64,000 bases of DNA from Chamaelirium japonicum (taxonomy: Eukaryota; Streptophyta; Magnoliopsida; Liliales; Melanthiaceae), in the NCBI GenBank assembly GCA_947650365.1, contig OX393549.1:27991209-28055208 (forward strand). The letters are read 5' to 3'. Position 1 is the first letter of the stretch; every line of letters starts with the position of its first letter. The notes under the pieces are model-generated. The model was not told the origin of the DNA, made no database searches, and saw nothing but the letters and a program-made list of their open reading frames with translations. The translations under genes and the position numbers were made by a program. Shown one piece after another: positions 210-64,000 of this stretch.

Positions 210-1166
210 CATACGATCCATTCTAATTCATTCGTATGATCCATTCTTATTCATTTGCACGATCCAGTCTAATGGATTCGCACGATCCATTCTAATTCAT
301 TCGCACGAATGTATCCATTCTAATTCATTCGTACGATCCATTCTAATTCATTAATATGATCCATTCTAATTCATTCGTACGATCCATTCTAATTCAAATG
401 CACAAAGGTATCGATTCTAATCCATTCGTAGGATTTATTCTAATCCATTCGTACGATCCATTCTAATTCATTCGTACGATCCATTCTAATTCATTCGCTC
501 GAATGTATCCATTCTAATCCATTCGTAGGATCTATTCTAATTCATTCGTCCGATCCATTCTAATTCATTCGTCCGATCCATTCTAATTCATTCGCACGAA
601 TGTATCCATTCTAATTCATTCGTACGATCCATTCTAATTCATTCGTACGATCCATTCTAATTCATTCGTAAGATCCATTCTAATTCATTTGTACGATCCA
701 TTCTAATTCATTCGCACGATCTATTCTAATTCATTCGCACGAATGTATCCATTCTAGTTCATTCGTACGATCCATTCTAATCATTCGTACGATCCATTCT
801 AATTCATTCGCACGATCCATTCTAATTCATTCGTACGATCAATTCTAATGCATTCGCACGAATGTATCCATTCTAATTCATTCATACGATCCATTCTAAT
901 TCATTCGTACGATCCATTCTAATTCACTCATACGATCCATTCTAATACATTCATACGATCCATTCTAATTCATTTGCACGAATATATCCATTCTAATTCA
1001 CTCGTACGATCCATTCTAATTCCTTCATACGATCTATTCTAATTCATTCATACGATCCATTCTAATTCATTCGTACGATCCATTCTAATTCCTTCGTATG
1101 ATCCATTCTAATTCATTCGTACGATCCATTCTAAGTCATTCTTACAATCTATTCTAATTCATTCGT

Positions 1167-2072
1167 ACGAATGGATACATTCGTGTGAATGAATTAGAAT
1201 GGATCGTACGAATGAGTAAGAATGGCTCGTACGAATGAACTAGAATGGATTGCACGAATGAATTAGAATGGATCGTACGAATGAATTAGAATGGATCGTG
1301 TGAAAGAATTAGAATGGATTGTATGAATGAATTAGAATAGATCGTACGAAGGAATTAGAATGGATCGTACGAAGGAATTAGAATGGATCGTACGAATGAA
1401 TTAGAATGGATCATACGAATGAATTAGAATAGATCGTACGAATGAATTAGAATGGATCGTACGAAGGAATTAGAATGGATCGTACGAATGAATTAGAATG
1501 GATATATTCGTGCAAATGAATTAGAATGGATCGTATGAATGTATTAGAATGGATCGTATGAGTGAATTAGAATGGATCGTACGAATGAATTAGAATGGAT
1601 CGTATGAATGAATTAGAATGGATCGTGCGAAAGAATTAGAATGCATTGTATGAATGAATTAGAATGGATAGTATGAATGAATTAGAATGGATCATGCGAA
1701 TGAATTCGAATGGATCGCATGATCCATTCGAATAGAATGGATCGTATGAATGAATTAGAATGGATCGGGCGAATGAATTAGAATGGATTGTAGGAATGAA
1801 TTAGAATGGATCGTATGAATGAATTAGAATGGATCGTATGAATGAATTAGAATGGATCGTGCGAATGAATTAGAATGGATAGTACGAATGAATTAGAATG
1901 GATCGTACGAATGAATTAGAATGGATCATACGAATGAATTAGAATGGATCATACGAATGAGTAAGAATGGATCGTACGAATGAAATAGAATGGATTGTAC
2001 GAATGAATTAGAATGGATACAATCATGCGAATGAATTAGAATGGATCGGACGATTGAATTAGAATGGATCGT
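1167..2072 (-). repeat. Satellite block 2 (R)
   Basis: It opens at J1. It carries the marker GATATATTCGTGCAAATG near 1500 and the 28-bp dyad 1705-1732. It closes at CGTACG 2070-2075 (J7). Its first 480 bp closely match the starts of blocks 4 and 6. Confidence 0.93.
1705..1732. repeat. 28-bp inverted repeat (one-unit flip)
   Basis: TTCGAATGGATC and GATCCATTCGAA form 12-bp perfect arms around GCAT. One half-unit is flipped inside an R block. The same element recurs at 11595-11622 and 54469-54496, and reversed at 29357-29384. Confidence 0.9.
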
Positions 2073-2772
2073 ACGATTCATTCTTATTCATTCGTACGAT
2101 CCATTCTAATACATTCGTACGATTCATGCTAATTCATTCGCACGATCCATTCTAATTCATTCGTACGATCCATTCTTATTCATTCATACGATCCATTCTA
2201 ATTCATTCGCACAATCCATTCTAATTCATTCGTACAATCCATTCTAATTCATTCGTATGATCCATTCTAACTCATTCGGTGGATCCATTCTAATTCATTC
2301 GTACGATCCATTCTAACTCATTCCCACGATCCATTCTAATTTATTCATACGATCCATTCTAATTCATTCGTACGATCTATTCTAATTCATTCGCACGAAT
2401 GTAACCATTCTAATTCATTCATACGATTCATTCTAATTCATTCGTATGAGCTATTCTAATTCATTCGTACGATACATTCTAATTCATTCGTACGATCCAT
2501 TGTAATTCATTCATACAATCCATTTAGATTCATTCGCACAAATGTATCCATTCAAATTCATTCGTACGATCCAGTCTAATTCATTCGTACGATCCATTCT
2601 AATTCCTTCGTACGATCCATTCTAATTCATTCGTACGATCTATTCTAATTCATTCGTACAATCAATTCTAATTCATTCGTATGATCCATTCTAATTCCTT
2701 CGTACGATCCATTCTAATTCATTCGTATGATCCATTCTAATTCATTCGTACAATCTATTCTAATTCATTCGT
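2073..2772 (+). repeat. Satellite block 3 (F)
   Basis: It runs from J7 to J1 (2766-2779). It holds the rare variants GGTGGATCC (about 2278), CCCACG (2323) and GAGCTATTC (2448), which recur in the same order near 31.0-31.2 kb. Confidence 0.93.
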
Positions 2773-3769
2773 ACGAATGGATACATTCGTGTGAATGAAT
2801 TAGAATGGATCGTACGAATGAGTAAGTAAGTATGGATCGTACGAATGAAATAGAATGGATTGCACAAATGAATTAGAATGGATCGTACGAATGAATTAGA
2901 ATAGATCGTGTGAAAGAATTAGAATGGATTGTATGAATGAATTAGAATGGATCGTACGAATGAATTAGAATGGATCGTACGAAGGAATTAGAATGGATCG
3001 TACGAATGAATTAGAATGGATCGTACGAATGAATTAGAATAGATCGTACGAATGAATTAGAATGGATCGTACGAATGAATTAGAATGGATCGTACGAAGG
3101 AATTAGAATGGATCGTACGAATGAATTAGAATGGATATATTCGTGCAAATGAATTAGAATGGATCGTATGAATGTATTAGAATGGATCGTATGAGTGAAT
3201 TAGAATGGATCGTACGAATGAATTAGAATGGATCGTATGAATGATTTAGAATGGATACATTCGTGTGAATGAATTAGAATGGATCGTATGAATGAATTAG
3301 AATAGATTTTGTGAATGAATTAGAACTGATCGTACGAATGAATTAGAATAGATACATTCGTGCGAATGAATTAGAATGGATTGTATGAATGAATTAGAAT
3401 GGATCGTACGAATGAACTAGAATGGATACATTCGTGCGAATGAATTAGAGTGGATCATACGAATGAATTAGAATGGATCGTACGAATGAATTAGAATGGA
3501 TCGTACGAATGAATTAGAATGGATCGTACGAATAAATTAGAATGGATACATTCATCCGAATGAATTAGAATGGATCATACGAATAAGTAAGAATGGATCG
3601 TACGAATGAAATAGAATAGATTGTACGAATGAATTAGAATGGATCCTACGAATGAATTAGAATTAATCGTGTGAAAGAATTAGAATGGATTGTATGAATG
3701 AATTAGAATGGATCGTATGAATGAATTAGAATGGATCGTACGAACGAATTCGAATGGATCGTGCGAATT
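2773..3769 (-). repeat. Satellite block 4 (R)
   Basis: The left end repeats that of block 2. A local AGTAAGTAAGTATGG stutter lies at about 2820. The GATATATTC marker is near 3126 and the GATTTTGTGAATG marker near 3306. It closes at GAATTAATTC 3765-3774, a J4 variant. Confidence 0.92.
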
Positions 3770-5848
3770 AATTCTAATTCATTCATACAATCCATTCTAA
3801 TTCTTTCACACGATCCATTCTAATTCATTCGTACGTTCCATTCTAATTCATTAGCACGATCCATGCTAATTCATTTGTTCGATCAATTCTAATTCATTAG
3901 CACGATCCATTCTAATTCATTCGTACGATCCATTCTAATTCATTCGCACGATCCATTCTAATTCATTCATAGGATCCATTCTAATTCATTCATACAATCC
4001 ATTCTAATTCATTCGCACGAATGTATCCATTCTAATTCATTCGTACGATCAGTTCTAATTCATTCACAAAATCTATTCTAATTCATTCATACGATCCATT
4101 CTAATTCATTCACACGAATGTATCCATTCTAATTCATTCGTACGATCCATTCTAATTCATTCGTACGATCCATTCTAATTCACTCATACGATCCATTCTA
4201 ATACATTCATACGATCCATTCTAATTCATTTGCACGAATATATCCATTCTAATTCATTCGTACGATCCATTCTAATTCCTTCGTACGATCCATTCTAATT
4301 CATTCGTACGATCTATTCTATTTCATTCGTACGATCCATTCTTACTCATTCGTACGATCCATTCTAATTCATTTATTCGATCCATTCTAATTCATTCGCA
4401 CGAATATATCCATTCTAATTCATTCGTTCGATCAATTCTAATTCATTAGCACGATCCATTCTAATTCATTCGTACGATCCATTCTAATTCATTCGCACGA
4501 TCCATTCTAATTCATTCATAGGATCCATTCTAATTCATTCATACGATCTATTCTAATTCTTTCGCACGAATGTATCCATTCTAATTCATTTGCACGAATG
4601 TATCCATTCTAATTCATTCGTACGATCCATTCTAATTCATTCATACGATCCATTCTAATTCATTCATACGATCTATTCTAATTCATTCATACAATCCATT
4701 CTAATTCTTTCACACGATCCATTCTAATTCATTCGTTCGATCAATTCTAATTCATTAGCACGATCCATTCTAATTCATTCGTACGATGCATTCTAATTCA
4801 TTTGTACGATTCAATTCTAATTCATTCGTACGATCCATTCTAATTCATTCGTATGATCCATTCAAATTAATTCGTATGATCCATTCTAATTCATTCGTAC
4901 GATCCATTTTAATTCATTCATACAATCCATTCTAATTCATTCGCACGATCCATTCTAATTCATTCGTAGGATCCAGTCTAATTCATTCGTACAATCTATT
5001 CTATTTCATTCGTACGATCCATTCTTACTTTTTCGTATGATCCATTCTAATTTATTCGGACGATTGTATCCATTCTAATTTATTCATACGATCCATTCTA
5101 ATTCATTCGTACGATCCATTCTAATTCATTCGTACGATCCATTCTAATTCATTCGTCCGATCCATTCTAATTCATTCGCACGAATGTATCCATTCTAATA
5201 CATTCGTACGATCCATTCTAATTCATTCGTCCGATCCATTCTAATTCATTCGCACGAATGTATCCATTCTAATTCATTCGTACGATCCATTCTAATTCAT
5301 TCGTACGATCCATTCTAATTCATTCGTAAGATCCATTCTAATTCATTCGTACGATCCATTCTAATTCATTCGTAAGATCCATTCTAATTCATTCGCACGA
5401 ATGTATCCATTCTAGTTCATTCGTACGATCCATTCTAATTCATTCGTACGATCCATTCTAATTCATTCGCACGATCCATTCTAATTCATTCGTACGATCA
5501 ATTCTAATTCATTCGCACGAATGTATCCATTCTAATTCATTCATACGATCCATTCTTATTCATTCGTACGATCCATTCTAATTCACTCATACGATCCATT
5601 CTAATACATTTATACGATCCATTCTAATTCATTTGCACAAATATATCCATTCTAATTCATTCGTACGATCCATTCTAATTCCTTCATACGATCCATTCTA
5701 ATTCATTCGTACGATCTATTCTAATTTATTCGTACGATCCATTCTAATTCATTCGTACGAACCATTCTAATTCCTTCGTACAATCCATTCTAATTCATTC
5801 GTACGATCCATTCTAATTCATTCGTACAATCTATTCTAATTCATTCGT
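3770..5848 (+). repeat. Satellite block 5 (F)
   Basis: A 2.1 kb F block. The variant GTTCGATCAATTC followed by TTAGCACGATCC occurs three times (near 3876, 4426 and 4735). A 179-bp module lies at 5326-5504. It ends at J1, 5842-5855. Confidence 0.93.
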
Positions 5849-8113
5849 ACGAATGGATACATTCGTGTGAATGAATTAGAATGGATCGTACGAATGAGTA
5901 AGAATGGATCGTACGAATGAAATAGAATGGATTGCACGAATGAATTAGAATGGATCGTACGAATGAATTAGAATGGATCGTGTGAAAGAATTAGAATGGA
6001 TTGTATGAATGAATTAAAATGGATCGTACGAAGGAATTAGAATGGATCGTACGAAGGAATTAGAATGGATCGTACGAATGAATTAGAATGGATCGTACGA
6101 ATGAATTAGAATAGATCGTACGAATGAATTAGAATGGATCGTACGAAGGAATTAGAATGGATCGTACGAATGAATTAGAATGGATATATTCGTGCAAATG
6201 AATTAGAATGGATCGTATGAATGTATTAGAATGGATCGTATGAGTGAATTAGAATGGATCGTACGAATGAATTAGAATGGATCGTATGAATGAATTAGAA
6301 TGGATACATTCGTGTGAATGAATTAGAATGGATCGTATGAATGAATTAGAATAGATTTTGTGAATGAATAAGAACTGATCGTACGAATGAATTAGAATGG
6401 ATACATTCGTGCGAATGAATTAGAATGGATTGTATGAATGAATTAGAATGGATCGTACGAATGAACTAGAATGGATACATTCGTGCGAATGAATTAGAAT
6501 GGATCGTACGAATGAATTAGAATGGATCTTACGAATGAATTAGAATGGATCGTATGAATTAATTAGAATGGATACATTCGTGCGAATGAATTAGAATGGA
6601 TCGTACGAATGAATTATAATGGATCTTACGAATGAATTAGAATGGATCGTACGAATGAATTAGAATGGATCGTACGAATGAATTAGAATGGATATATTCG
6701 TGCGAATGAATTAGAATGGATCGGACGAATGAATTAGAATGGATCGTACGAATGAATTAGAATGGATCAAATGAATGAATTAGAATCGTTACATTCATGC
6801 GAATGTTTTAGAATGGATCGTACGAATGGATTAGAATGGATCGTACGAATGGATTAGAATGGATACATTCGAGCGAATGAATTAGAATGGATCGTACGAA
6901 TGAATTAGAATGGATCGTACGAATGGATTAGAATGGATCCTACGAATGGATTAGAATGGATACCTTTGCGCATATGAATTAGAATGGATCGTACGAATGA
7001 ATTAGAATGGATCATATTAATGAATTAGAATGGATCGTACGAATGAATTAGAATGGATACATTTCTGCGAATGAATTAGAATGGATCGTGCGAATCAATT
7101 AGATTGGATCGTGCGAATGAATAAGAATAGATCATACGAATGAATTAGAATGGATCGTACGAATTAATTAGAATGGATACATTCGTGCGAATGAATTAGA
7201 ATGGATTGTATGAATGAATTAGAATGGATCGTACGAATGAATTAGAATGGATCATACGAATTAATTAGAATGGATCATACGAATGAATTAGAATGGATCA
7301 TACGAATGAATTAGAATGGATCGTATGAATGAATTAGAATAGATACATTCGTGCGAATGAATTAGAATGGATTGTGCGAATGAATAAGAACAGATCGTGC
7401 GAATGAATTAGAATGGATCGTACGAATGAATTAGAATGGATCGTGCGAATGAATTAGAATGGATCGTACGAATGAATTTGAATGGATACATTTGTGCGAA
7501 TGAATTAGAATGGATCGTACGAATGAATTAGAATGGATCGTATGAATGAATTAGAATGGATCGTACGATTGAATTAGAATGGATCGTGCGAATGAATTAG
7601 AATGGATCGTACGAATGAATTAGAATGGATCGAACGAATGAACTAGAATGGATACATTCGTGCGAATGAATTAGAATAGATCGTACGAATGAATTAGAAT
7701 GGATCGTACGAATGAATTAGAATGGATCTTACGAATGAATTAGAATGGATCGTACGAATGAATTAGAATGGATCGTACGAATGAATTAGAATGGATACAT
7801 TCGTGCGAATGAATTAGAATGGATCGGACGAATGAATTAGAATGGATCGTACGAATGAATTAGAATGGATCGTACGAATGAATTAGAATGGATACATTCG
7901 TCCGAATGAATTAGAATGGATCATACGAATGAGTAAGAATGGATCGTACGAATAAAATAGAATAGATTGTACGAATGAATTTGAATGGATCCAACGAATG
8001 AATTAGAATGGATCGTGTGAAAGAATTAGAATGGATTGTATGAATGAATTAGAATGGATCGTATGAATGAATTAGAATGGATCGTGCGAATGAATTCGAA
8101 TGGATTGTACGAA
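5849..8113 (-). repeat. Satellite block 6 (R)
   Basis: A 2.3 kb R block starting like blocks 2 and 4. It holds the GATTTTGTGAATG marker near 6354, the ACCTTTGCGCATATG marker near 6962 and a CAATTAGATTGG marker near 7095. These link it to the 44-55 kb domain. It closes at GAATTC 8111-8116 (J4). Confidence 0.93.
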
Positions 8114-9910
8114 TTCATTCTAATTCATTCATACAATCCATTCTAATTCTTTCACACGATCCATTCTAATTCATTCGTATGTTCCATTCTAATTCATTAG
8201 CACGATCCATGCTAATCATTCGTTCGATCAATTCTAATTCATTAGCACGATCCATTCTAATTCATTCGTAAGATCCATTCTAATTCATTCGCACGATCTA
8301 TTCTAATTCATTCATAGGATCCATTCTAATTTATTCATACGATCTATTCTAATTCTTTAACACGAATGTATCCATTCTAATTCATTCGCACGAATGTATC
8401 CATTCTAATTCATTCGTACGATCCATTATAATTCATTCGTACGATCCATTCTAATTCATTCGTACGATCCATTCTAATTCATTCATACGATCTATTCTAA
8501 TTCATTCATACAATCCATTCTAATTCTTTCACACGATCCATTCTAATTCATTCGTACGATCCATTCTAATTCATTCGCACAATACATTCTATTTCATTCG
8601 TACGATCCATTCTTACTCATTGGTACGATCCATTCTAATTCATTCGCACGAATGTATCCATTCTAACTCATTCGTACGAATCCATTCTAATTCATTCGTA
8701 CAATCCATACTATTTCATTCGTATGATCCATTCTTACTCATTCGTATGATCCATTCTAATTCATTCACACGAATGTATCCATTCTAAATCATTCGTACGA
8801 TCCATTCTAATTCATTCGTACGATCCATTCTATATGATTCATAAAATCCATTCTATTTCATTAGTACGATCAATTCTAATTCATTAGCACAATCCATTCT
8901 AATTCATTCGTACGATCCATTCAAATTCATTCGCACGATCCATTCTAATTCATTCGTACAATCCATTCTATTTCATTCGTACGATCCATTCTTACTCATA
9001 CGTATGATCCATTCTAATTCATTCGCACGAATGTATCCATTCTAATCCATTCGTACGATCCATTCTAATCCATTCGTACAATCCATTCTAATTCATTCGC
9101 ATGAATGTAACCATTCTAATTCATTCATTTGATCCATTCTAATTCATTCGTACGATCCATTCTAATTCATTCATCCGATCCATTCTAATTCATTCGCACG
9201 AATGTATCCATTCTAAACCATTCATACGATCCATTCTAATTTATTCGTACGATCCATTCTAATTCATTCATAAGATCCATTCTAATTCATTCGTACGATC
9301 CATTCTAATTCATTCGTACGATCCATTCTAATTCATTCGCAAGAATGTATCCATTCTAGTTCATTCGTACGATCCATTCTAATTCATTCGTACGATCCAT
9401 TCTATTTCATTCGCACGATCCATTCTAATTCATTTGTACGATCCATTCTAATTCATTCGCACGAATGTATCCATTCTAATTCATTCGTACATATGATCCA
9501 TTCTAATTCATTCGCACGAATGTATCCATTCTAATTCATTTGTATAATCCATTCTATTTCATTCGTACGATCCATTCTTACTCATTCGTATGATCCATTC
9601 TAATTCATTCGCACGAATGTATCCATTCTAATTCATTCGTACGATACATTCTAATTCATTCGCACGATCCATTCTAATTCATTCGTAAGATCCATTCTAA
9701 TTCATTCATACGATCCATTCTAATTCATTCGTACGATCCATTCTAATTCATTCGCACGAATGTATCCATTCTAGTTCATTCATACGATCCATTCTAATTC
9801 ATTCGTACGATCCATTCTAATTCATTCGCACGATCCATTCTAATTCATTCGTACGATCAATTCTAATTCATTCGCACGAATGTATCCATTCTAATTCATT
9901 CGTACGATCC
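8114..9910 (+). repeat. Satellite block 7 (F)
   Basis: It runs from J4 to the abrupt join GATCC|TGAATTAG at 9910/9911 (J3). A 179-bp module lies at 9685-9863, with a diverged relative just before it (about 9270-9440). An irregular CGTACATATG spacer is at about 9488. Confidence 0.93.
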
Positions 9911-10582
9911 TGAATTAGAATGGATCGTACGAATGAATTAGAATGGATCGTACGAATGAACTAGAATGGATACATTCGTGCGAATGAATTAGAATGGATC
10001 GTATGAATGAATTAGAATGGATCGTACGAATGAATTAGAATGGATCATACGAATGAATTAGAATGGATCATACGAATGAGTAAGAATGGATCGTACGAAT
10101 GAAAGAGAATGGATTGTACGAATGAATTAGAATGGATCGTACGAATGAATTAGAATGGATCAAGTGAAAGAATTAGAATGGATTGTATGAATGAATTAGA
10201 ATGGATCATATGAATGAATTAGAATGGATCGTGCGAATGAATTCGAAAGGATCGTACGAATGAATTAGAATGGATCATACGAATGAATTAGAATGGATAC
10301 ATTCGTGCGAATGAATTAGAATGGATACATTCGTGCGAAAGAATTAGAATAGATCGTATGAATGAATTAGAATGGATCCTATGAATGAATTAGAATGGAT
10401 CGTGCGAATGAATTAGAATGGATCGTACGAATGAATTAGAATCGATCGTGCTAATGAATTAGAATTGACGAACGAATGAATTAGCATGGATCGTGCTAAT
10501 AAATTAGAATGGAACGTACGAATGAATTAGAATGGATCGTGTGAAAGAATTAGAATGGATTGTATGAATGAATTAGAATGAA
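9911..10582 (-). repeat. Satellite block 8 (R)
   Basis: It runs from J3 to J4 (GAATTC 10580-10585). It carries the GTGCTAATG and GAATTAGCATGG variants near 10450-10500. Confidence 0.93.
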
Positions 10583-11235
10583 TTCGTACGATCCATTCGA
10601 ATTCATTCGCACGATCCATTCTAATTCATTCATACCATCCATTCTAATTCATTCATACAATCCATTCTAATTCTTTCACACAATCCATTCTAATTCATTC
10701 GTAGGAACCATTCTAATTCATTCGTACAATCTATTGTATTTCATTCGTACGATCCATTCTTACTCATTCGTATGATCCATTCTAATTCATTCGGACGAAT
10801 GTATCCATTCTAATTTATTCGTACGATCCATTCTAATTCATTCGTACGATCCATTCTAATTCATTCGTACGATCCATTCTTACTCATTCGTATGATCTAT
10901 TCTAATTCATTCGTACGATCCATTCTAATTCATTCGTACGATCCATTCTAATTCATTCGCACAATCTATTCTAATTCATTCGTTCGTCAATTCTAATTCA
11001 TTAGCACGATCCATTCTAATTCATTCGTACGATCCATTCTAATTCATTCGCACGCTCCATTTTAATTCAATCATAGGATCCATTCTAATTCATTCATACG
11101 ATCTATTCTAATTCTTTCGCACGAATGTATCCATTCTAATTCATTCGCACGAATGTATCCATTCTAATTCATTCGTACGATCCATTCTAATTCATTCGTA
11201 CGATCCATTCGAATTCATTCGCACGATCCATTCGT
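10583..11235 (+). repeat. Satellite block 9 (F)
   Basis: It runs from J4 to an unclassified turn on CATTCGTGCGAATG (11229-11242), which is the same dyad found inside 28-bp units. Confidence 0.92.
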
Positions 11236-11939
11236 GCGAATGAATTAGAATGGATTGTATGAATGAATTAGAATGGATATATTCGTGCGAATGAATTAGA
11301 ATGGATCATATGAATGAGTAAAAATGGATCGTACGAATGAAATAGAATGGATTGTACGAATGAATTAGAATGGATCGTACAAATGAATTAGAATGGATCG
11401 TACGAATGAATTAGAATGGATCATACGAATGAGTAAGAATGGATCATACAAATGAAATAGAATGGACTGTACGAATGAATTAGAATGGATCGTACGAATG
11501 AATTAGAATGGATCGTGTGAAAAAATTAGAATGCATTGTATGAATGAATTAGAATGGATCGTATGAATGAATTAGAATGGATCGTGCGAATGAATTCGAA
11601 TGGATCGCATGATCCATTCGAATAGAATGGATCATATGAATAAATTAGAATGGATCGGGCGAATGAATTAGAATGGATTGTAGGAATGAATTAGAATGGA
11701 TCGTATGAATGAATTAGAATGGATCGTATGAATGAATTAGAATGGATCGTGCGAATGAATTAGAATGGATCATACGAATGAATTAGAATGGATCGTACGA
11801 ATGAATTAGAATGGATCATACGAATGAGTAAGAATGGATCGTACGAATGAAATAGAATGGATTGTACGAATGAATTACAATGGATACATTCATGCGAATG
11901 AATTAGAATGGATCGGACGATTGAATTAGAATGGATCGT
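11236..11939 (-). repeat. Satellite block 10 (R)
   Basis: It contains the 28-bp dyad 11595-11622. From there to J7 (CGTACG 11937-11942) it copies 1705-2072, one 23-bp unit shorter. Confidence 0.93.
11595..11622. repeat. 28-bp inverted repeat, second copy
   Basis: Perfect 12-bp arms around GCAT, identical to 1705-1732, and followed by the same GGGCGAATG and GTAGGAATG variants. Confidence 0.9.
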
Positions 11940-13529: not shown

Positions 13530-13696
13530 TGAATTAGAATGGATCGTACGAATGAATTAGAATGGATACCTTTGTGCATATGAATTAGAATGGATCGTAC
13601 GAATGAATTAGAATGGATCATATTAATGAATTAGAATGGATCGTACGAATGAATTAGAATGGATACATTCGTGCGAATGAATTAGAATGGATCGTG
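13530..13696 (-). repeat. Satellite block 12 (R, short)
   Basis: About seven units between J3 and J5 (GTGCAC 13694-13699). It carries the ACCTTTGTGCATATG and GATCATATTAATG markers also seen at 36.5, 44.2, 44.9 and 59.6 kb. Confidence 0.92.
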
Positions 13697-50512: not shown

Positions 50513-50567
50513 ACGAATGTATCCATTCTAATTCATTCGTACGATCCATTCTAATTCACTAGCACGA
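50513..50567 (+). repeat. 55-bp F island, copy 2
   Basis: The same two boundaries as copy 1, at 50507-50518 and 50565-50570. It starts 3,932 bp after copy 1. Confidence 0.93.
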
Positions 50568-53560
50568 TCGTACGAATTAATTAGAATGGATCGTGCGAAT
50601 GAAATAGAATGGATATATTCGTGCAAATGAATTAGAATGGATCGTACGAATGAATTAGAATGGATCGTACGAATGAATTAGAATGGATCATACGAATGAA
50701 ATAGAATGGATCGTACGAATGAAATAGAATGGATTGTGCGAATGAATTAGAATGGATCGTACGAATGAATTAGAATGGATACATTCGTGCGAATGAATTA
50801 GAATGGATCATACGAATGAGTTAGAATGGATCGTACGAATGAAATAGAATGGATTATACAAATGAATTAGAATGGATACATTCCTGCGAATGAATTAGAA
50901 TGGATCGTATGTACGAATGAATTAGAATGGATACATTCGTGCGAATGAATTAGAATGGATCGTACGAATGAATTAGAATGGATCGTGCGAATGAATTAGA
51001 ATGGATCGTACGAATGAATTAGAATGGATCGTACGAATGAACTAGAATGGATACATTCGTGCATGGATCGTACGAATGAATTAGAATGGATCGTACGAAT
51101 GAATTAGAATGGATACATTCGTGCGAATGAATTAGAATGGATACATTTGTGCGAAAGAATTAGAACGGATTGTATGAATGAATTAGAATAGATCGTACAA
51201 ATGAATTAGAATGGATATATTCATGCGAATGAATTAGAATGGATCGTACGAATGAATTAGAATGGATCGTAAGAATGAACTAGAATGGATACATTCGTGC
51301 GAATAAATTAGAATGGATCGTACGAATGAATTAGAATGGATCGTACGAATGAATTAGAATGGATCTTACGAATGAATTAGAATGGATCGTACGTATGAAT
51401 TAGAATGGATCATACGAATGAATTAGAATGGATCGTACGAATGAATTAGAATGGATCATATTAATGAATTAGAATGGATCGTACGAATGAATTAGAATGG
51501 ATACATTCGTGCGAATAAATTAGAATGGATCGGACGAATGAATTAGAATGGATCGTACGAATGAATTAGAATAGATCAAATAAATGAATTAGAATGGTTA
51601 CATTCATGCGAATGAATTAGATGGATCGTACGAATGGATTAGAATGGATCGTACGAATGGATTAGAATGGATACATTCGAGCGGATAAAATAGAATGGAT
51701 CGTACGAATGAATTAGAATGGATACATTCGTGCGAATGAATTAGAATGGATCTTGCGAATCAATTAGACTGGATCGTCCGAATGAATAAGAATTGATCAT
51801 ACGAATGAATTAGAATGGATCGTACGAATTAATTAGAATGGATACATTCGTGCGAATGAATTAAAATGGATTGTAGGAATGAATTAGAATGGATCGTACG
51901 AATGAATTAGAATGGATCATACGAATTAATTAGAATGGATCATACGAATGAATTAGAATGGATCGTTCGAATGAATTAGAATGGATCGTACGAATGAATT
52001 AGAATGGATACATTCGTGTGAATGAATTAGAATGGATCGTATGAATGAATTAGAATAGATTTTGTGAATGAATTAGAACTGATCGTACGAATGAATTAGA
52101 ATGGATACATTCGTGCGAATGAATTAGAATAGATTGTATGAATTAATTAGAATGGATCATTCGAATGAATTAGAATGGATCGTATGAGTGAATTAGAATG
52201 GATACGAAGGAATTAGAATGGATCGTACGAATGAATTAGAATGGATCGTACGAATGAATTAGAATGGATCGTACGAATGAATTAGAATGGATCTTACGAA
52301 TGAATTAGAATGGATCGTACGAATAAATTAGAATGGATCGTACGAATAAATTAGAATGGATCGTGCGAATGAATTAGAATGGATCATATTAATGAATTAG
52401 AATGGATCGTACGAATGAATTAGAATGGATACATTCGTGCGAATGAATTAGAATTGATCGTGCGAATCAATTAGACTGGATCGTGCGAATGAATAAGAAT
52501 AGATCATACGAATGAATTAGAATGGATCGTACGAATGAATTAGAATGGATCTTACGAATGAATTAGAATGGATCGTACGAATAAATTAGAATGGATCGTA
52601 CGAATGAATTAGAATGGATCGTGCGAATGAATTAGAATGGATCGTGCGAATCAATTAGACTGGATCGTGCGAATGAATAAGAATAGATCATACGAATGAA
52701 TTAGAATGGATCGTACGAATTAATTAGAATGGATAAATTCGTGCGAATGAATTAGAATGGATTGTATGAATGAATTAGAATGGATCGTACGAATGAATTA
52801 GAATGGATCATACGAATTAATTAGAATGGATCATAGGAATGAATTAGAATGGATCGTACGAATGAATTAGAATGGATCGTACGAATGAATTAGAATGGAT
52901 ACATTCATGTGAATGAATTAGAATGGATCGTATGAATGAATTAGAATAGATTTTGTGAATGAATTAGAACTGATCGTATGAATGAATTAGAATGGATACA
53001 TTCGTGCGAATGAATTAGAATGGATTGTATGAATGAACTAGAATGGATCGTTCGAATGAATTAGAATGGATCGTATGAGTGAATTAGAATGGATACAAAG
53101 GAATTAGAATGGATCGTACGAATGAATTAGAATGGATCGTACGAAGGAATTAGAATGGATCGTACGAATGAATTAGAATGGATCGTACGAATGAATTAGA
53201 ATAGATCGTACGAATGAATTAGAATGGATCGTACGAAGGAATTAGAATGGATGGTACGAATGAATTAGAATGGATCGTACGAATGAACTAGAATGGATAC
53301 ATTCGTGCGAATGAATTAGAATGGATCGTACGAATGAATTAGAATGGGTCGTACGAATGAATTAGAATGGATCGTACGGATGAATTAGAATGGATCTTAC
53401 GAATGAATCAGAATGGATCGTACGAATGAATTAGAATGGATCGTACGAATGAATTAGAATGGATCGTATGAATGAATTAAAATGGATCGTACGAATGAGT
53501 GAGAATGGATCGTACGAATGAATTAGAATGGATTGTACGAATGAAATAGAATGGATTCGC
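50568..53560 (-). repeat. Satellite block 54 (R)
   Basis: It repeats the marker order of block 52: CGTATGTACG near 50905, GTGCATGGATCG near 51060, AAATAAATG at 51578, then the CAATTAGACTGG and GATTTTG cycles. Confidence 0.93.
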
Positions 53561-53615
53561 ACGAATGCATCCATTCTAATTCATTCGTACGATCCATTCT
53601 AATTCACTAGCACGA
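53561..53615 (+). repeat. 55-bp F island, copy 3
   Basis: Boundaries 53555-53566 and 53613-53618. It starts 3,048 bp after copy 2. Confidence 0.93.
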
Positions 53616-54468
53616 TCGTACGAATTAATTAGAATGGATCGTGCGAATGAATTAGAATAGATCGTGCGAATGAATTAGAATGGATATATTCGTGCAAATG
53701 AATTAAAATGGATCGTACGAATGAATTAGAATGGATCGTTTTAGTGAATTAGAATGGATACGAAGGAATTAGAATGGATCGTACGAAGGAATTAGAATGG
53801 ATCATACGAATGAAATAGAATCGATCGTTCGAAGGAATTAGAATGGATCGTACGAATGAGTAAGAATAGATCGTACGAATGAAATAGAATGGATTGTGCG
53901 AATGAATTAGAATGGATCGTACGAATGAATTAGAATGGATACATTCGTGCTAATGAATTAGAATGGATCATACGAATGAGTAAGAATGGATCGTACGAAT
54001 GAAATAGAATGGATTATACAAATGAATTAGAATGGATACATTCGTGCGAATGAATTAGATTGGATCGTATGTACGAATGAATTAGAATGGATACATTCGT
54101 GCGAATGAATTAGAATGGATCGTACGAATGAATTAGAATGGATCGTGCGAATGAATTAGAATGGATCGTACGAATGAATTAGAATGGATATATTCGTGCA
54201 TGGATCGTACGATTGAATTAGAATAGATCGTACGAATGAATTAGAATGGATCGTACGAATGAATTAGAATGGATACATTCGTGCGAATGAATTAGAATGG
54301 ATACATTCATGCGAAAGAATTAGAATGGATTGTATGAATGAATTAGAATGGATCGTATGAATGATATAGAATGGATCGTGCGAATGAATTCGAATGGATC
54401 GTACGAATGAACTAGAATGGATACATTTGTGCGAATGAATTAGAACTAGAATGGATCGTGCGAATGAA

Positions 54469-54496
54469 TTCGAATGGATCGCATGATCCATTGGAA
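54469..54496. repeat. 28-bp inverted repeat, third copy
   Basis: As 1705-1732 but with one arm mismatch (CATTGGAA). Confidence 0.88.
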
Positions 54497-54851
54497 TAGA
54501 ATGGATCGTATGAATGAATTAGAATGGATCGGGCGAATGAATTAGAATGGATTGTAGGAATGAATTAGAATGGATCGTATGAATGAATTAGAATGGATCG
54601 TATGAATGAATTAGAATGGATCGTACGAATGAATTAGAATGGATCGTACGAATGAAATAGAATGGATATTACGAATGAATTAGAATGGATACATTCGTGT
54701 AAATGAATTAGAATGGATCGTACGAATGAATTAGAATGGATCGTACAAATGAATTAGAATGGATCGTACGAATGAATTAGAATGCATCGTACGAAAGAAT
54801 TAGAATGGATATATTCGTGGGAATGAATTAGAATGGATCGTACGAATGAAT

Positions 54852-55354
54852 TAGACTGGATCGTACGAATGAATTTGAATGGATACATTTGTGCGAATGA
54901 ATCTAAATGGATTGTATGAATGAATTACAATGGATCGTTCGAATGAATTAGAATGGATCGTACGAATGAATTAGAATAACTCATACGAATGAATTAGAAT
55001 GAATCGTATGAATGAATTAGAATGGTTACATTCGTGCGAATGAATTAGAATAAATCGTAAGAATGAATTAGAATGGATCAAACGAATAAATTAGAATGGA
55101 TCGTGGGAATGAATTAGAATGGATCGTACGAATAAATTAGAATGGATCAACCGAATGAGTTAGAATGGATCATACGAATGAATTAGAATGGATTGTTTGA
55201 ATGAATTAGAATGGATTGTGCGAATGAATTAGAATGGATCGTATGAATGAATAAGAATGGATCGTACGAATGAATTAGAATGGATCGTGCGAATAAATTA
55301 GCATGAATCGTACGAATGTATTAGAATGGATCGTACGAATGAATTAGAATGAAT
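54852..55354 (-). repeat. 503-bp module, copy 2
   Basis: The same start, inner markers, end and length as 28511-29013. Confidence 0.88.
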
Positions 55355-55357
55355 CGT

Positions 55358-56173
55358 ACGATCCATGCTAATTCATTCGTACGATCCATTCTAATTCATT
55401 CGCACGAATGTATCCATTCTAGTTCATTCGTACGATCCATTCTAGTTCATTCGTACGATCCATTCTAATTCATTCGTACGATCCATTCTAATTCATTCGT
55501 ATGATCCATTCTAATTAATTCGTATGATCCATTCTAATTCATTCGTACGATCCATTCTAATTCATTCATACAATCCATTCTAATTCATTCGCACGAATGT
55601 ATCCATTCTAATTAATTCGTACGATCCATTCTAATTCATTCGTATGATCCATTCTTATTCATTCGCACGATCCAGTCTAATGGATTCGCACGATCCATTC
55701 TAATTCATTCGCACGAATGTATCCATTCTAATTCATTCATACGATCCATTCTAACTCATTAATATGATCCATTCTAATTCATTCGCACGATCCATTCTAA
55801 TTCATTCATACGATCCATTCTAATTCATTCGTACGATCCATTCTAATTCATTCGCACGATCCATTCTAATTCATTCGTACAATCTATTCTATTTCATTCG
55901 TACGATCCATTCTTACTCATTCGTTTGATCCATTATAATTAATTCGGACGAATGTATCCATTCTAATTTATTCGTACGATCCATTCTAATTCATTCGTAC
56001 GATCCATTCTAATTCATTCGTACGATCCATTCTAATTCATTCGTCCGGTCCATTCTAATTCATTCGCACGAATGTATCCATTCTAATTCATTCGTACGGT
56101 CCATTCTAATTCATTCGCACAATCCATTCTATTTCATTCGTACGATCCATTCCTACTCATTCGTATGATCCAT
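55358..56173 (+). repeat. Satellite block 57 (F)
   Basis: It runs from J7 to J2 (ATCCATTACGGAT 56168-56180, one change). Confidence 0.92.
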
Positions 56174-56522
56174 TACGGATACATTCGTGCGAATGAATTA
56201 GAATGGATCATACGAATGAGTAAGAATGGATCGCACGAATTAAATAGAATGGATTGTGCGAATGAATTAGAATGGATCGTACGAATGAATTAGAATGGAT
56301 CGTGTGAAAGAATTAGAATGGATTGTACGAATGAATTAGAATAGATCGTATGAATGAATTAGAATGGATCGTACGAATGAATTAGAATGGATCGTACGAA
56401 TGAACTAGAATGGATACATTCATGCGAATGAATTAGAATGGATCGTACGAATGAATTAGAATGGATCGTACGAATGAATTAGAATGTATCTTACGAATGA
56501 ATTAGAATGGATCGTACGAATG
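56174..56522 (-). repeat. Satellite block 58 (R)
   Basis: It runs from J2 to J6 reverse form (TGCA 56521-56524). It has the same 349-bp length as block 38 and is followed by the same F sequence, so it is a long-range duplicate 21.5 kb away. Confidence 0.93.
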
Positions 56523-57114
56523 CACGATCCATGCTAATTCATTCGTTCGATCAATTCTAATTCATTCGCACGATCCATTCTAATTTATTCGTACGATCCA
56601 TTCTAATTCATTCGCACGATCCATTCTAATTCATTCATACGATCCATTCTTATTCTTTCACACGATCCATTCTAATTCATTCGTACGATCCATTCTAATT
56701 CATTCGTACGATCTATTCTAGTTCATTCGTACGATCCATTCTAATTTCATTCGAACGATCCATTCTAATTCATTCGCTCGAATGTATCCATTCTAATCCA
56801 TTCGTACGATCCATTCTAATTCATTCACATGAATGTAACCATTCTAATTCATTCATTTGATCCATTCTAATTCATTTGTACGATCCATTCTAATTCATTC
56901 GTCCGATCCATTCTAATTCATTCGCACGAATGTATCCATTCTAATCCATTCGTAAGATCCATTCTAATTCATTCGTACGATCCATTCTAATTCATTCGTA
57001 CGATCAATTCTAATTCATTATTATGATCCATTCTAATTCATTCGTACTATCCATTCTAATTCATATGCACAAAGGTATCCATTCTAATTCATTCTTACGA
57101 TCCATTCTAATTCA
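56523..57114 (+). repeat. Satellite block 59 (F)
   Basis: It runs from J6 to J3 reverse form (TTCA|GGATCG 57114/57115). Confidence 0.92.
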
Positions 57115-57865
57115 GGATCGTACGAATGAATTAGAATGGATACATTCGTGCGAATGAAATAGAATTGATCGTACGAATGAATTAGAATGGATCGTGCGAA
57201 TGAATTAGAATGGATCGTACGAATTAATTAGAATGGATCGTACGAATGAATTAGAATGGATCGTACGGATGAATTAGAATGGATCTTACGAATGCATTAG
57301 AATGGATTGTACGAATGAATTAGAATGGATCGTACGAATGAATTAGAATGGATACATTCGTGCGAATGAATTAGAATGGATCGGATGAATGAATTAGAAT
57401 GGATCGTACGAATGAATTAGAATGGATCAAATGAATGAATTAGAATGGTTACATTCATGCGAATGAATTAGAATGGATCGTACGAATGGATTAGAATGGA
57501 TCGTACGAATGGATTAGAATGGATACATTCGAGCGAATGAATTAGAATGGATCGTACGAATGAAATTAGAATGGATCGTACGAATGAATTAGAATAGATC
57601 GTACGAATGAATTAGAATGGATCGTACGAATGAATAAGAATGGATCGTACGAATAAATTAGAATGGATACATTCGTCCGAATGAATTAGAATGGATCATA
57701 CGAATGAGTAAGAATGGATCGTACGAATGAAATAGAATAGATTATACGAATGAATTAGAATGGATCCTACGAATGAATTAGAATGGATCGTGTGAAAGAA
57801 TTAGAATGGATCGAATGAATGAATTAGAATGGATCATGCGAATGAATTCGAATGGATCATACGAA
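57115..57865 (-). repeat. Satellite block 60 (R)
   Basis: It runs from J3 to J4 (GAATTC 57863-57868). Confidence 0.92.
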
Positions 57866-58195
57866 TTCATTCTAATTCATTCATACAATACATTCTAATT
57901 CTTTCACACGATCCATTCTAATTCATTCGTACGTTCCATTCTAATTCATTAGCACGATCCATGCTAATTCATTCGTTCGATCAATTCTAATTCATTAGCA
58001 CGATCCATTCTAATTCATTCGTACGATCCATTCTAATTCATTCGTAAGATCCATTTTAATTCATTCGTACGATCCATTCTAATTCATTCGTACGATCCAT
58101 TCTAATTCATTCGCACGATCCATTCTAATTCATTCGTACGATCAATTCTAATTCATTCGCACGAATGTATCCATTCTAATTCATTCGTACGATCC
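57866..58195 (+). repeat. Satellite block 61 (F)
   Basis: It runs from J4 to J3 (GATCC|TGAATTAG, 58195/58196), with GATCAATTC about 55 bp before J3 as in blocks 7 and 11. Confidence 0.92.
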
Positions 58196-58776
58196 TGAAT
58201 TAGAATGGATCATACGAATGAATTAGAATGGATCGTACGAATGAACTAGAATGGATACATTCGTGCGAATGAATTAGAATGGATCGTACGAATGAATTAG
58301 AATGGATCGTACGAATGAATTAGAATGGATCGTACGAACGAATTAGAATGGATCATACGAATGAATTAGAATAGATCATACGAATGAGTAAGAATGGATC
58401 GTACGAATGAAATAGAATGGATTGTGCGAATGAATTAGAATGGATCGTACGAATGAATTAGAATGGATCGTACGAATGAATTAGAATGGATACATTCGTG
58501 CGAATGAATTAGAATGGATACATTCGTGCAAAAGAATTAGAATAGATCGTATGAATGAATTAGAATGGATCCTATGAATGAATTAGAATGGATCGTGCGA
58601 ATGAATTAGAATGGATCGTACGAATGAATTAGAATGGATCGTGCTAATGAATTAGAATTGATCGAACGAATGAATTAGCATGGATCGTGCTAATGAATTA
58701 GAATGGAACGTACGAATGAATTAGAATGGATCGTGTGAAAGAATTAGAATGGATTGTATGAATGAATTAGAATGAA
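58196..58776 (-). repeat. Satellite block 62 (R)
   Basis: It runs from J3 to J4 (GAATTC 58774-58779), matching block 8 in ends and in its GTGCTAATG variants. Confidence 0.92.
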
Positions 58777-59135
58777 TTCGTACGATCCATTCGAATTCAT
58801 TCGCACGATCCATTCTAATTCATTCATACGATCCATTCTAATTCATTCATACAATCCATTCTAATTCTTTCACACGATCCATTCTTACTCATTCGTATGA
58901 TCCATTCTAATTCATTCGGACGAATGTATCCATTCTAATTTATTCGTACGATCCATTCTAATTCATTCGTACGATCCATTCTAATTCATTCGTACGATCC
59001 ATTCTTACTCATTCGTATGATCCATTCTAATTCATTCGTACGATCCATTCTAATTCATTCGTACGATCCATTCTAATTCATTCGCACAATCTATTCTAAT
59101 TCATTTGTACGATCCATTCTAATTCATTTGTACGA
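58777..59135 (+). repeat. Satellite block 63 (F)
   Basis: It runs from J4 to an unclassified CGATCG turn (59133-59138). Confidence 0.92.
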
Positions 59136-59723
59136 TCGTACGAATGAATTAGAATGGATCGTACGGAATGAATTAGAATGGATTGTATGAATGAATTAGA
59201 ATGGATACATTCGTGCGAATGAATTAGAAAGGATCATACGAATGAGTAAGAATGGATCGTACGAATGAAATAGAATGGATCGTACGAATGAATTAGAATG
59301 GATCGTACAAATGAATTAGAATGGATCGTACGAATGAATTAGAATGGATATATTCGTGCGAATGAATTAGAATAGATCGGACGAATGAATTAGAATGGAT
59401 CATACGAATGAATTAGAATGGATCAAATGAATGAATTAGAATGGTTACATTCATGCGAATGAATTAGAATGGATCGTACGAATGGATTAGAATGGATCGT
59501 ACGAATAGATTAGAATGGATACATTCGAGCGAATGAATTAAAATGGATCGTACGAATGAATTAGAATGGATCGTACGAATGGATTAGAATGGATCCTACG
59601 AATGGATTAGAATGGATACCTTTGTGCATATGAATTAGAATGGATCGTACGAATGAATTAGAATGGATCATATTAATGAATTAGAATGGATCGTACGAAT
59701 GAATTAGAATGGATACATTCGTG
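59136..59723 (-). repeat. Satellite block 64 (R)
   Basis: It ends at J5 in reverse form (GTGCAC 59721-59726). A one-base insertion, CGTACGGAATG, lies near 59161. Confidence 0.92.
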
Positions 59724-59844
59724 CACGATCCATTCTAATTCATTCGCACGAATGTATCCATTCTAATTCATTCGTACGATCCATTCTAATTCATATGCAC
59801 AAAGGTATCCATTCTAATTCATTCGTACGATCCATTCTAATTCA
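59724..59844 (+). repeat. Satellite block 65 (F, short)
   Basis: About five units between J5 and J3 reverse form (59844/59845). Confidence 0.92.
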
Positions 59845-61429
59845 GGATCGTACGAATGAATTAGAATTGATACATTCGTGCGAATGAATTAGAATTGATC
59901 GTACGAATAAATTAGAATGGATCGTGCGAATGAATTAGAATGGATCGTACGAATGAATTAGAATGGATCGTACGAATGAATTAGAATGGATACATTCGTG
60001 CGAATGAATTAGAATGGATCGTACGAATGAATTAGAATGGATCGTACGAATGAATTAGAATGGATCTTACGAATGAATTAGAATGGATCGTACGAATGAA
60101 TTAGAATGGATCGTACGAATGAATTAGAATGGATACATTCGTGCGAATGAATTAGAATGGATCGGACGAATGAATTAGAATGGATCGTACGAATGAATTA
60201 GAATGGATCAAATGAATGAATTAGAATGGTTACATTCATGCGAATGAATTAGAATGGATCGTACGAATGGATTAGAATGGATCGTACGAATGGATTAGAA
60301 TGGATACATTCGACCGAATGAATTAGAATGGATCGTACGAATGAATTAGAATGGATCGTACGAATGGATTAGAATGGATCCTACGAATTGATTAGAATGG
60401 ATACCTTTGTGCATATGAATTAGAATGGATCGTATGAATGAATTAGAATGAATCATATTAATGAATTAGAATGGATCGTACGAATGAATTAGAATGGATA
60501 CATTCGTCCGAATGAATTAGAATGGATCGTGCGAATCAATTAGACTGGATCGTGCGAATGAATAAGAATAGATCATACGAATGAATTAGAATGGATCGTA
60601 CGAATGAATTAGAATGGATCATACGAATTAATTAGAATGGATCGTACGAATGGATTAGAATGGATCGTGCGAATGAATTAGATTGGATCGTACGAAGGAA
60701 TTAGAATGGAAACATTTGTGCGAATGAATTAGAATGGATCGTACGAATGAATTAGAATGGATCGTATGAATGAATTAGAATGGATCGTACGAATGAATTA
60801 GAATGGATCGTGCGAATGAATTAGAATGGATCGTACGAATGAATTAGAATGGATCGTACGAATGAATTAGAATGGATCTTACGAATGAATTAGAATGGAT
60901 CGTACGAATGAATAAGAATAGATCGTACGAATGAATTAGAATGGATACATTCGTGCGAATGAATTAGAATGGATCATACGAATGAATTAGAATGGATCGT
61001 ACGAATGAATTAGAATGGATCTTACGAATGAATTAAAATGGATCGTACGAATGAATTAGAATCGATCGTACGAATGAATTAGAATGAATACATTCGTGCG
61101 AATGAATTAGAATGGATCGGACGAATGAATTAGAATGGATCGTACGAATGAATTAGAATGGATCGTACGAATGAATTAGAATGGATCGTACGAATAAATT
61201 AGAATGGATACATTCGTCCGAATGAATTAGAATGGATCATACGAATGAGTAAGAATGGATCGTACGAATGAAATAGAATAGATTGTACGAATGAATTAGA
61301 ATGGATCCTACGAATGAATTAGAATGGATCGTGTGATAGAATTAGAATGGATTGTATCAATGAATTAGAATGGATCGTATGAATGAATTAGAATGGATCG
61401 TGCGAATGAATTCGAATGGATCGTACGAA
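59845..61429 (-). repeat. Satellite block 66 (R)
   Basis: 1.6 kb. It carries CAATTAGACTGG near 60537 and ACCTTTGTGCATATG near 60402. It ends at GAATTC 61427-61432 (J4). Confidence 0.93.
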
Positions 61430-61775
61430 TTCATTCTAATTCATTCATACAATCCATTCTAATTCTTTCACACGATCCATTCTAATTCATTCGTAGGATC
61501 CATTCTAATTCATTCGTACAATCTATTCTATTTCATTCGTACGATCCATTCTTACTCATTCGTATGATCCATTCTAATTTATTCGGACGAATGTATCCAT
61601 TCTAATTTATTCGTACGATCCATTCTAATTCATTCGTACGATCCATTCTTACTCATTCGTACGACCCATTCTAATTCCTTCGTACGATCCATTCTAATTC
61701 TTTCGTACGATCCATTCTAATTCATTCGCACGATCCATTTTTATTCTTTCATACAATCCATTCTAATTCTTTCGT
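61430..61775 (+). repeat. Satellite block 67 (F)
   Basis: It starts at J4 and ends at an unclassified TTCGTGCGAA turn (61771-61780). Confidence 0.92.
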
Positions 61776-62652
61776 GCGAATGAATTAGAATGGATACCTT
61801 TGTGCATATGAATTAGAATGGATCGTACGAATGAATTAGAATGGATCATATTAATGAATTAGAATGGATCGTACGAATGAATTAGATTGGATACATTCGT
61901 GCGAATGAATTAGAATGGATCGTGCGAATCAATTAGACTGGATCATGCGAATGAATAAGAATAGATCATACGAATGAATTAGAATGGATCGTACGAATTA
62001 ATTAGAATGGATACATTCGTGCGAATGAATTAGAATGGATTGTATGAAGGAATTAGAATGGATCGTACGAATGAATTAGAATGGATCATACGAATTAATT
62101 AGAATGGATCATACGAATGAATTAGAATTGATCGTACGAATGAATTAGAATGGATCGTACGAATGAATTAGAATGGATCATGCGAATGAATTAGAATGGA
62201 TCGTACGAATGAATTTGAATGGATACATTTGCGCGAATGAATTAGAATGGATCGTACGAATGAATTAGAATGGATCGTATGAATGAATTAGAATGGATAG
62301 TACGAATGAATTAGAATGGATCGTACGAATGAATTAGAATGGATCGTGTGAAATAATTAGAATGGATCGTACGAATAAATTAGAATGGATCGTGCGAATG
62401 AATTAGAATGGATCGAACGAATGAATTAGAATGGATACATTTGTGCGAATGAATTAGAATGGATCGTACGAATGAATTAGAAAGGATCGTATGAATGAAT
62501 TAGAATGGATCGTACGAATGAATTAGAATGGATCGTGCGAATGAATTAGCATGGATCGTACGAATGAATTAGAATGGATCGTACGAATGAACTAGAATGG
62601 ACACAATCGTGCGAATGAATTAGAATGGATCGTACGAATGAGTTAGAATGGA
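61776..62652 (-). repeat. Satellite block 68 (R)
   Basis: It ends at GGATCC 62650-62655, the only turn seen on that palindrome. Confidence 0.92.
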
Positions 62653-62901
62653 TCCATTCGAATTCATTCGCACGATCCATTCTAATTGATTCATACGATC
62701 CATTCTAATTCATTCGTACGATCCATTCTAATTCATTCACACAAATATATCCATTCTAATTCATTCGTACGATCCATTCTAATTCATTCGCACGATCCAT
62801 TCTAATTCATTCGTGCAATCCATTCTATTTCATTCGTACGATCCTTTCTTATTCATTCGTACGATCCATTCTAATTCATTCACACGAATGTATCCATTCG
62901 T
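62653..62901 (+). repeat. Satellite block 69 (F, short)
   Basis: It ends at J1 reverse form (62895-62908). Confidence 0.92.
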
Positions 62902-63933
62902 ACGAATGAATTAGACTAGATTGTACGAATGAATTAGAATGGATCGTACGAATGAATTAGAATGGATCGTATGAAGGAATTAGAATGGATCGTACGAATG
63001 AATTAGAATGGATCGTACGAATGAATTAGAATAGATCGTACGAATGAATTAGAATGGATCGTACGAAGGAATTAGAATGGATCGTACGAATGAATTAGAA
63101 TGGATATATTCGTGCAAATGAATTAGAATGGATCGTATGAATGTATTAGAATGGATCGTATGAGTGAATTAGAATGGATGGTATGAATGAATTAGAATGG
63201 ATCATACGAATTAATTAGAATGGATCATACGAATGAATTAGAATGGATCGTACGAATGAAGTAGAATGGATCGTACGAATGAATTAGAATGGATCATACG
63301 AATGAATTAGAATGGATCATACGAATGAGTAAGAATGGATCGTACGAATGAAATAGAATGGATTGTACGAATGAATTAGAATGGATACAATCGTGCGAAT
63401 GAATTAGAATGGATCGTACGAATGAATTAGAATGGATCGTACGAATGAATTAGACTGGATCGTACGAATGAATTTGAATGGATATATTTGTGCGAATGAA
63501 TCTAAATGGATTGTATGAATGAATTACAATGGATCGTACGAATGAATTAGAATGGATCGTATGAATGAATTAGAATGAATCGTATGAATGAATTAGAATG
63601 GTTACATTCGTGCGAATGAATTAGAATAGATCGTACGAATGAATTAGAATGGATCGTACGAAAAAATTAGAATGGATCATGGGAATGAATTAGAATGGAT
63701 CGTACGAATGAATTAGAATGGATCCACCGAATGAGTTAGAATGGATCATACGAATGAATTAGAATGGATTGTACGAATGAATTAGAATGGATTGTGCGAA
63801 TAAATTAGAATGGATCGTATGAATGAATAAGAATGGATCGTACGAATGAATTAGAATGGATCGTGCGAATGAATTAGCATGAATCGTACGAATGTATTAG
63901 AATGGATCGTACGAATGAATTAGAATGAATCGT
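62902..63933 (-). repeat. Satellite block 70 (R)
   Basis: It runs from J1 to J7 (63931-63936). It resembles block 32 in both ends and order, and contains the third 503-type module. Confidence 0.93.
63451..63930 (-). repeat. 503-bp module, copy 3 (480 bp)
   Basis: The same ordered markers as 28511-29013 and 54852-55354 but 23 bp shorter, that is, one monomer missing near 63560-63580. Confidence 0.87.
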
Positions 63934-64000
63934 ACGATCCATTCTAATTCATTCGTACGATCCATTCTAATTCATTCGCACGAATGTATCCATTCTAGTT
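63934..64000 (+). repeat. Satellite block 71 (F), cut by the window end
   Basis: About three units after J7. The array continues past the window. Confidence 0.92.

Follow-up and report, generated by a model that had tools for sequence, protein, structure and literature searches.

The 64,000-bp window analysed here (C1:27991209-28055208 in the 1.52-Gb assembly G000, numbered 1-64000) is filled by a satellite array that switches orientation about every 0.9 kb on average, and most of these switches are very likely copies of a restricted range of inversion junctions, carried in blocks that have multiplied, been turned round and passed from one centromere unit to another. There are fewer junction types than random joins yield, blocks that bear junctions are copied, they lie in both orientations, and they are shared across chromosomes.

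The array (1..64000, without a single strand) is made up of 71 same-orientation runs of 23-bp and 28-bp monomers, and the satellite fills all 64,000 bp, with no non-satellite island inside the window. A 23-bp tandem period was measured, and the forward (F) unit of the 23-bp monomer is GAATGAATTAGAATGGATCGTAC; the 28-bp monomer is the 23-bp form with an ACATT insertion and an A to G change (by inspection, ...GGATACATTCGTGC versus ...GGATCGTAC, a 5-bp indel and one substitution). The unit contains the motif TTCGTACGA and an 8-bp dyad, TCGTACGA, which is identical when read in either orientation. An exact dimer occurs 56 times in the window (23 forward, 33 reverse) and 198,248 times genome-wide (99,407 forward, 98,841 reverse), which by proportion corresponds to about 227 Mb of satellite.

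Comparisons with published systems rest on excerpts of the papers cited. In PMC10264360, the Chio1 and Chio2 satellites of Chionographis japonica, a holocentric relative of lilies, have 23- and 28-bp monomers that differ by 5 bp and one substitution, an 8-bp dyad and runs of mixed orientation; Chio makes up about 16% of a genome assembled into 1,526,137,861 bases, 3,786 contigs and 12 chromosomes, and the centromeric histone CENH3 coincides with its arrays. The assembly used here has 3,253 contigs and 1,518,659,071 bases, and its chromosome-sized contigs C1-C12 are equated with the 12 chromosomes from their size. Because monomer lengths, the 5-bp and one-base difference, TTCGTACGA, abundance and assembly size all agree, the window satellite is a strong fit to Chio1/Chio2, judged from the published description and not letter by letter against the published consensus; the dyad of the published satellite would then be TCGTACGA. 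The window gave no match in prokaryote and viral collections.

Orientation switches were called by Viterbi decomposition with circular forward and reverse (R) unit models. At penalties of 15, 20 and 30 the count was 70, falling to 68 at 40 and 62 at 60, and the outermost switch points lie at 1169 and 63928; the 70 switches that a previous sequence-only reading had placed between 1160 and 63936 were thus recovered. That reading had also sorted 59 of the 70 into eight breakpoint classes, seven of them present in both orientations. The R>F classes are J1 (1169..62898), with nine copies (plus 1169, 2775, 5851, 14677, 33478; minus 23618, 28313, 35442, 62898), J2 (9911..59845), with seven (plus 9911, 13530, 44212, 58196; minus 17474, 57115, 59845), and J3 (15272..56185), also with seven (plus 15272, 41776; minus 18419, 21659, 34665, 42737, 56185). 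The F>R classes are J4 (3771..61429), with 14 copies (plus 3771, 8113, 18034, 30198, 41438, 42191, 57865, 61429; minus 10581, 15631, 19132, 22476, 40120, 58775), J5 (13705..59713), with seven (plus 13705, 16710, 20222, 25591, 43634; minus 36571, 59713), J6 (14968..56522), with four (plus 14968, 34217; minus 35012, 56522), and J7 (2069..63928), with five (plus 2069, 11936; minus 29011, 55352, 63928). J8 (46589..53614) comprises six junctions, the ends of three flipped 45-46-bp inserts at 46589/46634, 50520/50566 and 53568/53614. These class sizes (9, 7, 7, 14, 7, 4, 5 and 6) match those proposed, with the qualification that automatic clustering alone joins J4 with J7 (19) and J5 with J8a (10), and that these pairs were separated by eye from the junction sequences with the proposed sizes known beforehand. 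J1 to J7 each lie in both orientations, as had been claimed (5/4, 4/3, 2/5, 8/6, 5/2, 2/2 and 2/3), while J8 is one-way in the window (3/0). Eleven junctions fall outside the classes (11232, 16674, 19878, 20336, 21489, 29770, 38012, 40749, 59134, 61772 and 62651). R>F junctions near the palindrome ATTCGTACGATCGTACGAAT (29770, 59134 and the right ends of the J8 inserts) form a further small cluster, part of which had been assigned to J8.

The junctions were compared with 60 sets of 70 random F/R joins (35+35) built from pieces of the same array. In clusters of at least three we find 62 of the 70 observed junctions, against a mean of 24.6 and a maximum of 34 for random joins, and the total number of clusters is 14 instead of a mean of 43 and a minimum of 36. 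The claim that breakpoints arose few times is borne out in this sense.

The arrangement of the junctions shows that they were copied within larger blocks. Intervals between neighbouring junctions were examined in 124 contiguous kb and five distant 10-kb pieces of C1, where 179 could be measured among 185 usable junctions. Two intervals bounded by the same pair of classes were identical in length in 19 cases in the same orientation and in three in opposite orientation; when the labels were permuted, the means were 0.26 and 0.07 and the highest counts 3 and 2. Within 50 bp the numbers were 44 and 24, against means of 6.0 and 4.2 and maxima of 20 and 12. Some of the 19 same-orientation pairs stem from local tandem duplication of segments about 4.8 and 14 kb long. 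Positions 1..13529 on the plus strand belong, as its right part, to a direct tandem duplication of 14.1 kb (98.0% identity over ungapped columns, 259 gap columns), the left copy of which mostly precedes the start of the window. A 2.4-kb block with two junctions at 1317..3771 (plus) has an inverted partner at 27327..29773 (minus; 94.7% over ungapped columns). The cassette at 14677..15631 on the plus strand runs J1+, 291 bp, J6+, 304 bp, J3+, 359 bp, J4-, and its J1-J6-J3 part (14677-15272) is mirrored at 34665..35442 on the minus strand as J3-, 347 bp, J6-, 430 bp, J1-; with 60 bp added on each side, the mirrored segment is 98.6% identical to 14617-15332 over ungapped columns, with 188 gap columns. 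A 190-bp block with J2+ and J5+ at 13520..13709 (plus) is present in both orientations within the 124-kb stretch.

The spacing from J3 to J4 was taken from start to start, using for each class its 100 listed exact places, which do not exhaust the class. Among 21 listed pairs less than 600 bp apart the spacing is exactly 375 in eight, of which two are mirrored and lie 7-8 Mb from the other six; 352 occurs three times and 329 once, so that 12 of the 21 fall on this series of 23-bp steps. In 500 shifted controls no spacing was seen more than twice. Copying inside larger cassettes and inversion of the cassettes themselves, both proposed from the window alone, are thus upheld by exact intervals that recur and are mirrored.

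Self-alignment of the 124 kb with BLAST returned 445 blocks (236 direct, 209 inverted), which we tried as support for inversion and dropped, because 97% of their ends lie at a switch in one copy only and 88% of the blocks carry no junction; such ends are the aligner stopping at an orientation change, and only junction-bearing blocks were kept as evidence.

Higher-order repeats are by definition multi-monomer blocks copied as units. The array has their trait of repeated multi-monomer blocks that are more alike than single monomers, on 11 of the 18 flank sides described below. By inspection, blocks in the 124-kb stretch show no regular head-to-tail periodicity: they are irregularly placed, lie in either orientation, and form tandem runs only locally. 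Elsewhere on C1, J1 places at 2.50-2.58 Mb recur at 2.67-2.75 Mb, displaced by about 164-170 kb (in several cases by 169,966; by inspection), and a 1,706-base spacing recurs as far as 2.84 Mb, which suggests large direct duplications within one centromere unit.

The same junctions occur far beyond the window. Cores of 44-48 bases were searched genome-wide on both strands with at most two mismatches. We found 14,609 copies of J1 (7160+7449), 11,166 of J3 (5577+5589), 21,523 of J4 (10729+10794) and 16,915 of the F>R core J8a (8437+8478), all near 1:1 in orientation, so that J8a is two-way outside the window; an exact 100-base J1 pattern occurs 1549+1513 times. Two made-up junctions, phase combinations picked for their absence from the sample, gave 12 (4+8) and 22 (12+10, at 12 places) matches, and the reversed patterns used as controls gave none in all ten pattern searches. 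The 190-bp J2-J5 block, with at most three mismatches, is present 1,394 times (681 forward, 713 reverse). Its 100 listed exact places include 66 on C1-C9, C11 and C12 and 34 on smaller contigs; none of them is on C10, so that 11 of the 12 chromosome-sized contigs hold one. The listed places on these chromosome contigs fall into 27 clusters separated by over 3 Mb, and both orientations are present in 12 of these clusters. Junction 38012, single in the sample and unclassed, has 253+233 copies, on many chromosomes among the places listed, where J1, J3 and J4 are seen in distant units of C1 only and J8a on C1 and C2. Listed places are incomplete per region and apparently forward-biased: reverse J1 100-mers in C1:1.38-2.75 Mb contain the 44-mer, whose list shows forward places only. 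The total counts are complete, and the orientation pattern within units is drawn only from the J2-J5 block. A reading of local one-way amplification was dropped, since the lists of mostly forward places on which it stood are incomplete.

Because several junctions recur thousands of times genome-wide in both directions, the counts suggest that many centromere blocks exchange DNA. They also alter the picture drawn from the window. Nested inversion and amplification, as first proposed, is supported, but not as a local history: each junction that was counted has hundreds to thousands of copies in the genome, and the window therefore draws on a pool wider than itself. Likewise, eight classes describe the window and only a local subset of the full catalogue.

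Flank similarity within classes was set against a phase-matched null (35-150 bp: median 0.69, 95th percentile 0.835; 300-500 bp: 95th percentile 0.80), as class medians by side over 18 sides, those for J7 excluding pairs with a flank that runs off the window. At 35-150 bp, 11 sides lie at 0.86-0.93, above the 95th percentile, while the median between classes is 0.66. In each of the seven classes found in both orientations, copies of like and of opposite orientation resemble one another to about the same degree (J1 medians 0.933 and 0.933), which suggests that flipping proceeds at the pace of copying.

Several results weigh against the reading of a shared catalogue moved in blocks. Seven of the 18 flank sides at 35-150 bp are not above the null's 95th percentile (J2 right 0.64, J4 right 0.70, J5 left 0.66 and right 0.56, J6 right 0.77, J8a right 0.76 and J8b right 0.66), so that the expectation of flanks closer than those of random monomers held for 11 sides and failed for seven, including both of J5. 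Some of the failing sides are likely caused by a second junction nearby in some copies, as for J5, 175 bp from J2. By 300-500 bp, homology is at background on 16 of 18 sides, and only J8a left (0.81) and J8b left (0.82) exceed 0.80; because flank homology fades at this distance, there would be few large intact blocks, and exchange tracts may be short. The genome-wide counts cover four of the nine J1-J8 cores and one unclassed junction, and the made-up junctions show the rarity of such types, not of the average phase combination. An 8-kb sample of C2, picked for the presence of J8, has nine junctions, of which three match the C1 sample (core score at least 0.82), two of these being J8 by choice of place. 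Since only three of nine match, the junction pool is not fully mixed, and the catalogue is larger than eight and unevenly mixed.

The events behind this pattern may be ordered as follows. Rare breaks would fuse F with R runs, some of them, as the sequences suggest, at the dyad TCGTACGA, which may serve as microhomology for some junctions. Duplication of blocks with one to many junctions follows and is itself observed, the tandem copies here reaching about 14 kb. Flipped copies are likewise observed, and blocks would flip through homologous exchange between oppositely oriented runs, which we infer can turn a block without a new breakpoint. This route is the better fit to a limited catalogue, because inversion within a uniform run makes two new junctions each time. 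Blocks are shared among centromere units and chromosomes, and may pass between them by ectopic recombination or gene conversion. The 23-bp steps seen between J3 and J4 would reflect gain or loss of units by unequal exchange. As a main origin of the switches, foldback (palindromic) inverted duplication was rejected, with a median arm symmetry of 0.673 within and 0.667 across junctions. About ten places carry a perfect or near-perfect palindromic R>F junction with a CATTTAATG centre (C2:120829737, C2:120852461, C6:76445256, C6:76450356, C9:24759459, C10:72518293 and four on C12); these are rare foldback-like events.

Spread by circles is a possible though doubtful alternative to ectopic exchange. 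Extrachromosomal Chio circles reinserted in random orientation could have taken the junctions to many units, and would yield both the 1:1 orientation and the shared multi-junction blocks; the tandem blocks present here also speak for it, and extrachromosomal circular DNA (eccDNA) was itself proposed in PMC10264360. The same data are, however, explained by ectopic exchange, and we could not separate recombination from circle reinsertion on present data, which also counts against naming exchange as the route.

Recurrent breakage, in which the same monomer phases, for instance at the dyad, rejoin repeatedly and produce junctions that are alike without common descent, is unlikely. J7, 19878, 61772 and, by inspection, three C2 junctions sit at the dyad; J7, also by inspection, has its crossover at TCGTACGA with one substitution beside it, where the automatic microhomology score is 0. 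Over 19 representatives (the nine J cores plus ten unclassed junctions, all but 59134) the mean predicted microhomology is 2.26 bp against 0.77 bp for random phases, a suggestive difference that switch placement could bias, and the seven flank sides without clear excess would also be expected. Against this, the copies have flank variants in common on the remaining sides, inter-junction spacings are exact, the 190-bp block carries two junctions together, and the two made-up junctions above, which join F to R at other phases, have very few matches.

It is less probable still that inversions arose locally and independently in each unit, as the wording 'individual mixture' per unit in PMC10264360 might suggest and as the six C2-sample junctions without a match in the C1 sample would allow. 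Among the places listed, the J2-J5 block and junction 38012 lie on many chromosomes, J8a on both C1 and C2, and J1, J3 and J4 in distant C1 units; at most a minority of the window's junctions can be local. Assembly artefact is scarcely credible: repeats are difficult to assemble, and we judged from the assembly alone, which is a further point against our conclusion, but the switches lie about 0.9 kb apart, far below the usual HiFi read length, and recur with diverged flanks. Alternation is also reported by PMC10264360 and PMC12722358, though from one assembly.

Beyond the window, some non-satellite islands lie within or beside arrays: L021:1-1306, which adjoins the window's right end (C1 from about 28055209), L019:4507-5149 and several stretches of L031 before position 3700; their reading frames are short or of low complexity. 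Intact plant rbcL and cox1 are present in the genome; the rbcL comparison indicated a land plant and no more, with chain 1wdd from rice nearest among proteins of solved structure. Many separate smaller contigs have rbcL or cox1 matches of equal score; these are probably organelle genome fragments remaining in the assembly.

The copied junctions amount to a higher-order organisation of a centromere satellite whose copied blocks carry inversion junctions, in both orientations. Mixed forward and reverse runs in Chio arrays were already published (PMC10264360), and mixed orientation is thus known; what is new is the genome-wide scale of junction sharing. The passages compared describe the mixture but neither catalogue the junctions nor report that units share them or that blocks with several junctions have inverted copies; shared junction classes were not mentioned in the main-text literature searched, with figures and supplements outside its scope. 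Human alpha satellite higher-order repeats are also copied multi-monomer blocks, but a figure legend in PMC9549924 gives one inversion across all live human centromeres, whereas here a switch occurs every 0.9 kb, inside the copied blocks. The Chama satellite of Chamaelirium luteum, of the sister genus (PMC12722358), has TTCGTACGA in common with the window satellite, yet its monomer is 60 bp and its arrays are consistently oriented. CUS-TR24 of Cuscuta europaea (PMC8091179) resembles the present arrays in segmental duplication and inversion, but is interrupted by simple repeats and long interspersed nuclear elements (LINEs); as an identity for the window repeat it is ruled out by its 389-bp monomer.

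How centromere units spread along chromosomes was called unknown in 2025 (PMC12722358), and interlocus gene conversion, inversions and eccDNA had been named as candidate routes in 2023 (PMC10264360). A 23-bp monomer holds little ancestry information, which an inversion junction with its flanks does carry. A junction catalogue would give many markers per unit, with which exchange, tract length and indifference to orientation would become measurable from the existing assembly. The chances seem to us evenly balanced that the roughly 100 centromere units on the 12 chromosomes form one orientation-blind recombining pool, with exchange often enough to hold common junctions near 1:1. If this is true, the junctions would be heritable barcodes that trace the spread of the holocentromere unit by unit.

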